DNA of 64,000 nt. Source: an uncultured Verrucomicrobiae bacterium (lineage in GTDB: Bacteria; Verrucomicrobiota; Verrucomicrobiia; Limisphaerales; AAA164-E04). Shown piece by piece: positions 40,945 through 45,597 of this stretch. Under the pieces are notes generated by a model. It saw nothing but the letters and a program-made list of their open reading frames with translations, ran no database searches and was not told where the DNA came from. The position numbers were made by a program, and so were the translations under genes. Location of the stretch: contig CALSPN010000004.1 of the NCBI GenBank assembly GCA_943788245.1, forward strand, positions 1-64,000, given 5' to 3'. The first letter of the stretch is position 1. The number at the start of each line of letters is the position of its first letter.

Positions 40945-41286
40945 TTAACTTTCTATCACGTTGATTTCCACCGGTTCTACACTAATACCTAGTTTACTCA
41001 TCCACTTGATGGCTGCTTTTACCTGTTCACGAGCACCAGTCAATTCAAGGCAAACAATGCCAATTTCTTCCGTCACGCTGGCCTGCCTCACATTCGGCAC
41101 TACTTTGAACTTGTGGCCCAGTTCATGAATGATGGGACGCGTGATGAACCTTGGAGGATACATCAACCACAGCCGTGACTGCTCCTCCTGGCCTTTCCTT
41201 CCCTTGAGGGCTGTCTTTTTTTTAGCGTTGCTTGAAGCTTTCTTTTTAGACTTTGCCGCGGTTTTTGCTTTTTTGGGAATTGGCAT
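40945..41286 (-). CDS. NIL-domain protein with lysine-rich N-terminal tail
   Basis: A 113-residue protein. Residues 1-35 are a low-complexity basic tail of Lys, Ala and Ser (KKAKTAAKSKKKASSNAKKK). Residues 38-113 fit the NIL domain: RLWLMYPPRFITRPIIHELG, NVRQASVTEEIGIVCLELTG and the closing ISVEPVEI. NIL domains occur at the C-terminus of the MetN methionine-importer ATPase, where they sense methionine, and in some ferredoxins of sulfur metabolism. The gene follows the MoaD-like gene by 17 bases and is the third gene of the SAM-riboswitch operon. The tail looks like those of histone-like proteins and could bind nucleic acid or RNA, which is speculation. Confidence 0.82.
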   Translation of the reverse strand: MPIPKKAKTAAKSKKKASSNAKKKTALKGRKGQEEQSRLWLMYPPRFITRPIIHELGHKFKVVPNVRQASVTEEIGIVCLELTGAREQVKAAIKWMSKLGISVEPVEINVIES

Positions 41287-41303: not shown

Positions 41304-41579
41304 TTACCCTCCCGCAATAGCAGGAATGATACTGATTTCATCGTTGTCCTTGAGGGGTGTGTCCTTATTTTGAAGAAAACGAATATCTTCTTCATTAACG
41401 TAGACATTGACGAAACGGCGAATTTCACCCGATTCGTCGACGAGGCGCTCCTGGATACCGGGGTAACGTGCCTGGAGCTCTGCAATGGCTTCTCCAACCG
41501 TTGCGGCGGATATCTCAACCAATTCTTCATTGTTGGTGAGTTTCCGCAAAGGAGTGGGTATTCTAACTTTGGTTGACAT
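41304..41579 (-). CDS. MoaD/ThiS-like small sulfur carrier
   Basis: A 91-residue beta-grasp protein of the MoaD/ThiS superfamily. It opens MSTKVRIPTPLRKLTNNEEL and ends DEISIIPAIAGG, with the C-terminal Gly-Gly that is adenylated and thiocarboxylated in sulfur carriers. The internal VGEAIAELQARYPGIQERLV and FVNVYVNEEDIRFLQ match MoaD/CysO-like sequences. It lies 43 bases downstream of the PLP enzyme and 17 upstream of the NIL gene on the same strand. No MoeB/ThiF-type activating enzyme and no JAMM peptidase is in the window. In Mycobacterium, CysO donates sulfur to the PLP enzyme CysM; an analogous partnership here is inferred from position. Confidence 0.9.
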   Translation of the reverse strand: MSTKVRIPTPLRKLTNNEELVEISAATVGEAIAELQARYPGIQERLVDESGEIRRFVNVYVNEEDIRFLQNKDTPLKDNDEISIIPAIAGG

Positions 41580-41622: not shown

Positions 41623-42863
41623 TCAATTACTGAGCAGCGCTTCGAATTCTCGGAGGCTGGGTCGAATTTCTTTTGCTCGACCTACATGGTCAGCAACTGC
41701 GTCCAGGGTCTTCAAACCATTGCCAGTGATACAAAGAACGGCAGAATCATCTTTGGGAATTTGACCGTTGGCAATGAGTTTTTTGGCAACACCCACGGTG
41801 ACACCACCCGCAGTTTCCGCGAAAATACCCTCGCATTCCGCAAGGAGGCGAATGCCTTCTCGAATCTCATCGTCGGTTACATCGTCTCCATGACCTGCTG
41901 TTTCCCGCATGACCTTCAAAGCATAGAAACCGTCCGCAGGTGTACCGATAGCCAGCGATTTCGCAATCGTGTCAGGTTTAACAGGCTTGAAGAAATCCAG
42001 AGATGATTTGTGAGCAGCCGTGATAGGGGAACACCCTGTCGCTTGAGCTCCATGAATGTGGTATTTGGAGTCATCGACAATCCCCAGCTTGGAGAATTCC
42101 TGGTAACTTTTGTGAATCTTGGTCAGAAGCGAACCAGAGGCCATGCAGACAATTGTGTGCTTGGGGATTTCCCATCCTAATTGCTCCATGATTTCAAATC
42201 CCATGCTTTTCGACCCCCTCGGCATAATAGGGCCTCATGTTGACATTAACGAAGGCCCAACTGTATTTTGCCGGCAATTTCCGCACATAGACGATTGACT
42301 TCATCATAATGACCTTTGATGCTGATGACTTCTGGTCCATAGACGAGCGAGTTGACAATCTTTCCTTGCTCGAGATCAGCAGGAATAAAAACGAAGGCCC
42401 GAAGACCGGCTGAGGCCGCATTGGCAGCCACAGAGTTGGCTAGATTACCGGTTGAAGCACAAGCAACGGTATCAAAGCCAAGTTCTTTCGACCGACTCAA
42501 AGCAACACTGACAACGCGGTCCTTGAAGGATAAGGTCGGGTAGTTGACAGTATCGTTCTTAATCCATAATTCGCGAATACCCAGGCGCTTAGCCAAGCGG
42601 TCAGCCTTGACAAGTGGAGTGTAGCCAACTTGAAGTCCAACTGTGGGTTCTTTTGCCACTGGGAGGAGCTCACGATAGCGCCACATGCTGTTGGAACGTC
42701 GACTGATGACTTCGCGATTCAAACTATTGCGAATCAAGTCGTAATCATACGCCACTTCCAATGGGCCAAAATCAAATTCACAGACATGATTGGCTGTCAA
42801 GGGATACTCCCTACCACACTCTCGGCACTTAAGTGCCTTCATATAACCATTTTCTTCACTCAT
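41623..42863 (-). CDS. thrC: Threonine-synthase-like PLP enzyme (frame-disrupted)
   Basis: A fold-type II PLP enzyme of about 413 residues, most like threonine synthase, which converts O-phosphohomoserine to threonine. The N-terminal MKALKCRECGREYPL has a Cys-x2-Cys zinc-ribbon-like start seen in this group. PLP binding is at TLSFKDRVVSVAL (catalytic Lys), with the phosphate loop STGNLANSVAANA. Late parts include CMASGSLLTKIHKSY and AVLCITGNGLKTLDAV. The frame changes twice between 42190 and 42260, around AEIAGKYSWAFVNVNMRPYY. The start at 42863 follows a weak AGGA ribosome site. A SAM-I riboswitch lies upstream, which ties the operon to methionine rather than threonine supply. Other possibilities are a cysteate-synthase-like or thiocarboxylate-using enzyme. 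Confidence 0.82.
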
Positions 42864-42931
42864 AAGTCCTAAAAGTTGTTTGAAAACGAGTTGGGGTGCG
42901 GGGAAGAAGGTAGAAGAATCATGCCGCATCT

Positions 42932-42957
42932 GAGCCATTTCGGGCGTCAAATGGCTC
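42932..42957 (-). promoter_or_regulatory. Hairpin downstream of the riboswitch (expression platform)
   Basis: On the - strand, GAGCCATTT, an eight-base loop and AAATGGCTC form a perfect 9-bp stem between the riboswitch and the start codon. It is followed by a mixed pyrimidine-rich stretch (GATTCTTCTACCTTCTTCC after a few bases) rather than a clean U tract. This is the likely expression platform, either as a non-canonical terminator or as a switch partner; mechanism is inferred. Confidence 0.55.
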
Positions 42958-42980
42958 CACTTGGAGGGAGGCAATCAACA

Positions 42981-43108
42981 TCTCATCTTTCCCAAACCTT
43001 AACAGGTTTAAGCTGGAATTGGCACCTTGACATCGAGCAAATTGAGGTATTGTTCAATCGGTTGCCGTGGTTTCCTAGGGCCAGTTCCCTCAACCACTCT
43101 GAATGAGA
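42981..43108 (-). ncRNA. SAM-I (S-box) riboswitch
   Basis: Read on the - strand, this 128-base stretch matches the S-box consensus throughout. The P1 stem pairs TCTCATT at the 5' end (43102-43108) with ATGAGA at the 3' end (42981-42986). Between them come CAGAG, GAGGGAACTGGCCC, GAAACC, CGGCAACC (the J1/2 kink-turn and SAM-binding core) and AAGGTGCCAATTCC with AGC (P3 and J3/4), and finally AAAGATGAGA. All conserved blocks are in the right order. It precedes the thrC-like/MoaD/NIL operon by about 118 bases, so high SAM is expected to lower expression of that operon. Confidence 0.94.
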
Positions 43109-43134
43109 CCGTCTTATCAACGGATCGGGATACA

Positions 43135-43225: not shown

Positions 43226-44236
43226 ATGAGCACCTACCAGATCAAAACCCAAGTTGTTGGCAGTTACCCCGTGCCCCTCGTGGTTAAGGGCCTACCCCCA
43301 CTACACCAAATTTACATGATGCCATGTTAGCGGTGGTGAAGACCCAGGAGCTGGCCGGTATCGATATCATTTCTGATGGTGAATTATCTCGATTTGACGT
43401 CAATCACCCAGAGGACAAATGGCATGATTGAATATTTCATCAGGCCTATGGGGAGGCATGAGTGACCAGGTAAGCCGCGAAGACTGGCAACAATATCAAC
43501 AAGCAACTGGCATGCAATTTCGTTCCAAGCCTCCGGGTATGGTCACCAGCTCCATCCATGAGGGCACTTTAAACCTTCCTCAAGCTTGGAAATCCATCAA
43601 ATCATTAAGTGCCTCCTCGATGATGTTCACGTTAACTTCACCTTACATGTTAGCCAAAACACTCCATGATCGTCATTATGGTGACATCAAGACACTGACG
43701 AATGCAATCGCTCGGGTGTTGGCTAATCAAGTTGCTGGCATAGACGCCCCCATGGTTCAGATCGATGAAGCAAATTTACCCGGCAATGTAGAGGATGCGA
43801 GTTGGGCACACGAACCCATTAATCTGGTTTTGAATGCTATTCAAGGTGAGAGGGCATTGCATCTTTGCTTTGGGAATTACGGAGGTCAATCTATTCAAAA
43901 AGGGTTTTTGGGCACATCTGATCAAGTTTTTTCAATCAGCTTGATGTCAATCATCTTGTGTTGGAATTTGCGCGCAGGGGATACGATGAACTGGAGGCTT
44001 TCAATGATCTCAGGCCAGATATCAAACTTGGGATTGGGGTCGTGGACATCAAAGACAATGAAGTTGAAAGTCAGGATCTGATTGCAAAACGAGTGGATCA
44101 CGCGACAAGGATACTTGGTCCTGAACGTATCGGGTGGATCCATCCTGATTGCGGGTTTTGGATGCTTCCCCGAACCGTGGCAGATGAAAAAATGAAGCGT
44201 CTTGTTCTTGGAAGAAACCTTGTCGAAGACAAGTAG
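43226..44236 (+). CDS. Core-type methionine synthase (MetE C-terminal family), frame-disrupted
   Basis: About 336 residues when several frame changes (near 43275, 43420 and 43915) are repaired. It has the opening MSTYQIKTQVVGSYPVP and then NLHDAMLAVVKTQELAG, IDIISDGELSRFD and YFIRPMGGMSD, all typical of the C-terminal catalytic half of cobalamin-independent methionine synthase. The zinc site residues are in HLCFGNYGG, LEFARRGYDELEAF and HPDCGFWMLPR. Full MetE is about 750 residues; this core form lacks the N-terminal half and so presumably does not bind long polyglutamyl folates in the usual way. Characterised core-MetE proteins take methyl groups from corrinoid proteins. It is divergent from the SAM-riboswitch operon. 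Confidence 0.82.
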
Positions 44237-44277
44237 CGAACGCCGCCCATTACCACTTTCTTTCAGCTAACCATTTC

Positions 44278-45539
44278 ATGTCAAAAACCGAAGGTCATTC
44301 ACACAAGATTCGAAGAAGCCATTTGCTTGTTTTACTGGCTGCATTCCTCGGATGGTTATTTGACGGATTTGAGATGGGACTCTTCCCCATAGTTGCCCGC
44401 CCTGCCCTAACGGATATGTACACGGGCTCAGACAATGTGGACGCGTTTGTCGGTCAATGGATGGGGTGGATTACCCGCTGTATTTTTATTGGGAGCAGCT
44501 GCTGGTGGCTTTATTTTCGGATGGTTCGGGGATCGTTTCGGCCGCGTCAAAGCAATGTCAGCCAGTATTCTAACCTATTCCATTTTTACGGGATTAGGAT
44601 TTTTTGCCCAGGAGCCGTGGCACCTTGCATTATTCCGTTTTCTTGCAGCGCTTGGCATGGGAGGGGAATGGTCTCTGGGTGTTGCATTGGTTATGGAATG
44701 CTGGCCTGAACGACTCAGACCGCTCATGGCCGGCATTATCGGGGCCGCTGCTAACTTCGGTTTTTTACTGATTGCAGCCGTTAGTAAAGCCAAAGAGGTC
44801 ACAACGGATTCATGGCGATGGATGTGGCTGGTTGGGATCTTACCTGCATTGCTTGTCTTTTTCATTAGGCTCTTCGTACCTGAATCCGAGCGATGGAAAG
44901 CCTCGATCTCCAAGAACAAAAACAATCACCCACTCAAAGAAGTATTCTCCAAGAAACTGATTAAAAACACCTGTCTTGCTATTTGCTTTTCCTCTATTGC
45001 ATTGATAGGGACATGGGGATCGGTGCAATGGATTCCAGTGTGGGTTGATCAAATGGTTGGCGACACCCTGCCAACAGCAAAATCAGATGTGGGCATGTTG
45101 AGTGCAATGGGTGCGATTATCGGGTGCCTCGCCGGCCCTTTGATCGGAGGAGGTATTGGAAGGCGCCCAGCCTTTTTCATGCTCTGTTTATCCTCTTTGC
45201 TTGTTTGCGGGCGCTCTTTATCGCAGTGGAATAGAATATGGAGCGGCATTCAAATTCCTTGTTTTTTTGACAGGAATGACGACTGCCGCATTTTATGGTT
45301 GGTTTCCGCTCTATTTACCTGAATTATTTCCCACCCGATCCCGTGCTACAGGGCAAGGGGTAGGATATAATTCAGGAAGGATCTTTGCGGCTTTCGGAGC
45401 CATTGCAGGAGGGCAGCTCGTAGCTGCATTTGGTGGCGATTATGCACGGATGGGCAGTATGATTACATTGATTTATCTGGCAGGTATGCTGATGATCTGG
45501 GTGGCTCCAGAAACCAAAGGCAGACCCTTGCCTGAGTGA
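44278..45539 (+). CDS. MFS transporter, sugar/aromatic-acid:proton symporter type (frame-disrupted)
   Basis: A 12-helix major-facilitator protein of about 418 residues. MSKTEGHSHKIRRSHLLVLL leads to TM1 with LGWLFDGFEMGLFP, which carries the acidic pair found in aromatic-acid and sugar-acid MFS proteins. MFS motif A reads GWFGDRFGRVKAM; PESERWKASI replaces the usual PESPRW at the middle; the second copy of motif A-like GPLIGGGIGRRPAF precedes TM8. Frame changes are near 44470 and 45205. It ends VAPETKGRPLPE, the classical PET-G motif. It lies 41 bases downstream of the methionine synthase gene on the same strand. Substrate not predictable. Confidence 0.85.
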
Positions 45540-45597
45540 ACCGACCGAGGAGTGTCCGTGCCGCTTTACATAACATTGACAATGAGCTTACAGGCAG

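Follow-up and report, generated by a model that had tools for sequence, protein, structure and literature searches.

The window, that is the whole stretch of 64,000 nucleotides from a Verrucomicrobiota MAG that was analysed, was scanned over its full 64 kb with cmscan against all 4227 families of Rfam 15. The only match reaching the gathering score was the SAM riboswitch family RF00162, on the minus strand at 43109-42980, which scored 80.6 bits (E 2.2e-17) where 44.4 is the gathering score, with the aptamer covered in full length (1-108/108). The sequence-only reading had placed a SAM-I riboswitch on the minus strand at 42981-43108 on the basis of its S-box motifs and had proposed a search with the RF00162 covariance model. 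The search confirmed the element, the motif list was correct and the coordinates were correct to within one base. It was the only SAM-I riboswitch found in the 3.64-Mb assembly, which is 79% complete. The closest relatives of the MoaD-like protein encoded downstream came from MAGs of Verrucomicrobia subdivision 3, Limisphaerales and Pedosphaera. The locus comprises the following features:

42980..43109, minus strand: SAM-I (S-box) riboswitch aptamer, RF00162, 80.6 bits, nearly invariant in five congeners
42864..42979, minus strand: leader between the aptamer and the start codon, with a hairpin GAGCCATTT...AAATGGCTC that lacks a U-run
41623..42863, minus strand: MetM-like PLP enzyme, annotated as threonine synthase (thrC-like), with PALP/thrC matches and in a clade of its own (100/100)
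41304..41579, minus strand: MetO/CysO-like sulfur carrier ending in AIAGG, ThiS PF02597, nearest solved relatives CysO 3dwg and 4n6e
40945..41286, minus strand: NIL-domain protein (PF09383) with a lysine-rich N-terminal tail, conserved beside the carrier
43226..44236, plus strand: divergent, indel-broken core-MetE (PF01717) methionine synthase-like gene, a neighbour outside the control of the switch

The genes 3' of the switch were arranged on the same strand in the order PALP/thrC-like, ThiS/MoaD-family (91 aa), NIL (113 aa), IHF/HU and hisS, in agreement with the thrC-like, MoaD and NIL genes named in the sequence-only reading. Compared with two congeners in which the gene is intact, L009 and L012, the thrC-like ORF carries two single-nucleotide homopolymer insertions (AAAA vs AAA and GGGGG vs GGGG) that split it, at roughly 42268 and 42217 (near alignment A1 columns 852 and 903). 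As both indels fall in homopolymers and the congeners carry intact genes, the frameshifts in the window are probably sequencing errors, and the possibility of a real pseudogene was rejected on the same grounds. The likely start codon is the ATG at 42863 (MSEENGYMKALKC...), conserved in the relatives; the longer in-frame start, TTG at 42974, was discarded, since the stretch from this TTG to the gene contains a 1-nt indel in L009. Single-base indels seem to break several genes at 42200-42270 and 43226-45540, namely metM, core metE and an MFS transporter gene. The window assembly probably carries residual sequencing errors, the metM indels being homopolymer insertions. Parts of core metE were noticed at the same divergent position in L009, L012, L035 and L047.

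The locus was then compared across the order in a sample of 78 genomes, 50 of which carried SAM-I. Of 51 switches detected, 50 led into a MetM-like gene: 49 were located 247-427 nt upstream of its profile start, and one, lying at a contig end (L016), led into the conserved N-terminus. The carrier and the NIL gene followed the enzyme gene in nearly all loci on a long enough contig. The single exception (G033:C57) was a second SAM-I of that genome, at L155:3990-4103 on the minus strand, preceding genes for an AAA/MoxR ATPase, a vWA-like protein and metK; it possibly comes from another organism in the bin.

Directly 3' of the aptamer, 42 of the 49 leaders examined contained a GC-rich hairpin with a U-run behind it. 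In most cases the 5' arm of this hairpin is complementary to P1, namely to its 3' strand (CUCUUCUCAU vs AUGAGAAGAG). In these 42 leaders this is, as predicted from base pairing, the usual S-box terminator/antiterminator arrangement. No intrinsic terminator was found in the window leader (42864..42979), nor in any of the five members of the window's genus within the set of 49. Compared with the RF00162 class, the window thus retains the full aptamer and most relatives have the classic terminator/antiterminator platform, whereas the window's genus lacks this platform. Across the five congeners the aptamer hardly varies, whereas the leader past P1 has diverged, which suggests that selection in this genus acts on ligand binding. 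An alternative, concerning control only, is that the switch became a relic in the window's genus, with the terminator lost, metXY present and the operon no longer regulated by SAM. The absence of the terminator from 5/5 genus members against its presence in 42/49 leaders overall is consistent with such decay, as is the finding that four of the five genus members encode both MetX and a protein of the MetY/MetB/MetC family (PF01053). We consider it unlikely, since the aptamer has stayed nearly unchanged next to a diverging leader and a Rho-dependent or translational read-out would work without a terminator. In this genus the switch may act through Rho or through translation, or it may not act at all.

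The role of the operon was approached through the distribution of the homocysteine routes. Among 48 high-quality genomes (32 with the switch and 16 without), MetX was present in 1/32 switch-bearing and 13/16 switch-less genomes (Fisher 3.7e-8) and PF01053 in 4/32 and 13/16, respectively (Fisher 4.9e-6), both Fisher values being given without formal tree correction. The genomes are mostly of different families, and hence the pattern does not represent one clade counted repeatedly. Neither MetA nor DUF39 (PF01837) was detected in any of the 78 genomes of the order, and the latter result sets the operon apart from the DUF39 pathway. MetH-family matches were present in 75/78 genomes and CysE-family matches in 77/78. 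Switch-bearing genomes thus consume homocysteine, and the other known routes to it that were covered are mostly missing from them. Two observations count against the homocysteine reading. In seven genomes of the order the switch, MetX and PF01053 are all missing, and the window's own genome is an exception in which both routes are present (metY-metX at G000:C8:49907-52320), so that the operon is not its sole homocysteine route.

A ThrC-family gene distinct from the MetM-like one is present in genomes of the order; for the window's genome this is a canonical ThrC at G000:C6:3056-4015 (327.8 bits). In the maximum-likelihood tree the SAM-I-linked enzymes formed one clade (100/100). The MetM-like enzymes retain K61, the lysine that binds PLP, together with the STGN loop and T317, and residues T88, N154, S155, N157, R160, Q164 and N188 are replaced in 84/84 MetM-like relatives (T. 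thermophilus numbering throughout). These seven positions are invariant in the canonical, the E. coli-type and the third ThrC type of the order as well as in four solved ThrCs; we take some of them to contact the substrate phosphate. The set T88, N154, S155, R160 and N188, used to recognize a canonical threonine synthase, was found in none of the 84 enzymes. Other ThrC-like paralogue groups (grp3 and grp5) are also devoid of most canonical residues. The substitutions thus argue against threonine synthase but prove no product, and the absence of residues alone was rejected as a definition of MetM. A ThrC-like paralogue group with the motif SRLPTGSFK[AS]RGMA, in which most canonical residues are missing, was also observed in the order (L163-L167, L171).

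According to PMC12172450, which cites Hasebe et al. 2024 for this, MetM of Streptomyces albulus converts O-phosphohomoserine to homocysteine, metO belongs to the sulfur carrier family and a SAM riboswitch is located upstream; MetM is reported in the same text to work with a sulfur-carrier partner. A search of a plasmid collection revealed a record of Nonomuraea gerenzanensis with SAM-I (68.7 bits), the enzyme and the carrier in tandem. The Nonomuraea enzyme is 52% identical to the window enzyme, has nearly all of the same residue swaps and falls within the clade of the window enzyme (100/100), and the carrier shows 55% identity to the window carrier and has a GG end. No NIL gene was seen at the Nonomuraea locus. 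Given this layout and the common clade, the window operon is best read from its sequence as MetM-MetO plus NIL, a Verrucomicrobiota member of an already known kind. It combines a ThrC-like enzyme from a clade shared with an actinomycete (Nonomuraea) enzyme, an adjacent carrier ending in GG and a SAM riboswitch upstream, and its orthology to S. albulus MetM rests on the Nonomuraea locus and the common layout. Compared through that locus, and with the S. albulus system as described in PMC12172450, the two are alike in the ThrC-like PLP enzyme, the adjacent sulfur carrier, the upstream SAM riboswitch and the methionine role; they differ in phylum, in the NIL gene that in most cases comes after the carrier on the Verrucomicrobiota side and in the lack of an intrinsic terminator in the window's genus.

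Altogether, we assign a probability of about 0.87 to the reading that the SAM-I riboswitch controls a MetM-MetO-NIL operon making homocysteine from O-phosphohomoserine. The sequence-only reading had found a thrC-like target odd for a SAM switch and had pointed to a methionine-side role. The role was borne out by the separate canonical ThrC, the replacement of MetX and MetY/MetB/MetC, the CysO-type carrier, the loss of canonical residues and the clade shared with the Nonomuraea SAM-I/enzyme/carrier locus; the oddity was not, as the target represents a known, recently described kind. By analogy, the same chemistry would operate in Verrucomicrobiota. MetM, which belongs to the fold-type II PLP enzymes and is a relative of threonine synthase, would take O-phosphohomoserine and replace its phosphate by sulfur brought by the carrier MetO, probably as a C-terminal thiocarboxylate, and the resulting homocysteine would then be methylated by methionine synthase. 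With SAM plentiful, the aptamer would fold and the operon would be turned off. A protein thiocarboxylate, predicted here for the window carrier, reportedly also provides the sulfur for homocysteine in the HcyS/MetY route of Wolinella succinogenes, said to have been described by Krishnamoorthy and Begley in 2011. The Wolinella enzyme is MetY (PF01053), absent from most genomes analysed here.

An ordinary threonine synthase placed under SAM control, e.g., saving O-phosphohomoserine for other uses, would agree with the annotation and the profile matches of the gene, both of which give thrC. It would also agree with a Microcystis homologue, 51.6% identical to MetM, for which PMC12172450 describes activity both as a threonine synthase and as a threonine deaminase, with methionine not increased; that result suggests that the substrate range may vary across the MetM family. 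We nevertheless regard it as very improbable, because canonical ThrC is present as well, all 84 enzymes have substitutions at residues that do not vary among canonical ThrCs, a sulfur carrier adjoins the gene and the occurrence of the operon tracks methionine genes, not threonine genes.

The nearest solved relatives of the carrier are M. tuberculosis CysO (3dwg, 1.7e-21) and a ThiS/MoaD protein (4n6e, 2.5e-20), and elsewhere among bacteria cysteine genes, too, are under the control of SAM-I switches. Both facts would suit a cysteine synthase of the CysM/CysO type using O-phosphoserine, and the window operon indeed shares with CysM-CysO of Mycobacterium tuberculosis a PLP fold-type II enzyme and a CysO-type carrier with a GG end. 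However, the window enzyme is ThrC-like, not CysM-like, and SAM-controlled, the genes that the operon replaces are those of the methionine pathway, and the CysE family occurs in nearly all genomes of the order regardless of the operon, which makes this activity hardly credible. Least credible of all, a cystathionine gamma-synthase-like reaction that couples cysteine with O-phosphohomoserine, as plants do, and a subsequent cystathionine lyase that escaped recognition would account equally well for the SAM control and for the lack of MetX and PF01053, but this leaves the carrier with its GG end unexplained, and MetM acts with a sulfur-carrier partner in the account given in PMC12172450.

In the putative MetM-MetO operon, the carrier of the window (41579-41304) already ends in GG, as do, exactly at the end, 85 closed relative ORFs; a JAMM processing step was therefore rejected. 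The NIL protein has a single Cys, which is 94% conserved in the order and replaced by Gly in a Methylacidiphilum-like genome. As no Cys is invariant across the phylum, sulfur carriage on this residue is unlikely, and a role in ligand binding or docking is likelier than sulfur transfer. A NIL-domain protein also takes part in the DUF39/NIL-ferredoxin homocysteine pathway of methanogens and Desulfovibrio; in contrast to that pathway, DUF39 is missing from the order (0/78) and the window NIL protein has no ferredoxin domain in the Pfam scan. Tentatively, and with more doubt than confidence, NIL might be necessary, e.g., as a methionine-binding regulator or a docking factor of MetM-MetO, with methionine exerting control on the protein and SAM on the RNA, and with the switch of the window's genus working without an intrinsic terminator. 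If this were true, the Verrucomicrobiota form would be a three-component variant with control at both the protein and RNA levels.

The scan of the phylum identified the enzyme, at 63-72% identity, in nine genomes outside the order. The carrier was adjacent in 9/9 of them, NIL was present in 6/9 (L197, L200, L202-L205) and SAM-I was confirmed in 6/9. All nine had a separate ThrC, and none had a PF01053 match above about 31 bits. The enzyme and the carrier occurred together in putative Methylacidiphilum-like and Xiphinematobacter-like genomes. A genome-scale flux model of Methylacidiphilum fumariolicum found no genomic evidence for L-homocysteine synthesis (PMC12341988), and for the nematode symbiont Xiphinematobacter methionine was named as the exception among the essential amino acids made (PMC4607532). 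The presence of the enzyme and carrier in the two kinds of genomes makes the pair a candidate for the homocysteine gap, and the MetM-MetO operon probably fills the one stated for M. fumariolicum. The MetM route, published in 2024 for Streptomyces, would hereby be extended to Verrucomicrobiota. Many Verrucomicrobiota proteins annotated as threonine synthase are probably homocysteine synthases, and renaming them would correct auxotrophy predictions. Price et al. 2018 (PMC5764234) remarked that one or more routes to homocysteine had yet to be discovered, and MetM-MetO may account for part of this.

In some relatives, inserted DNA separates the enzyme gene from the carrier gene. In the two such loci that were read completely, it contained genes for a PDZ-like lipoprotein and PIN-like genes (identified by eye), and no E1 or JAMM protease genes. 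In the loci L076, L081, L082, L084, L091, L100 and L101, an additional MoaD-like gene of greater divergence (49-58% identity) is situated between the enzyme and the main carrier, as if duplicated.
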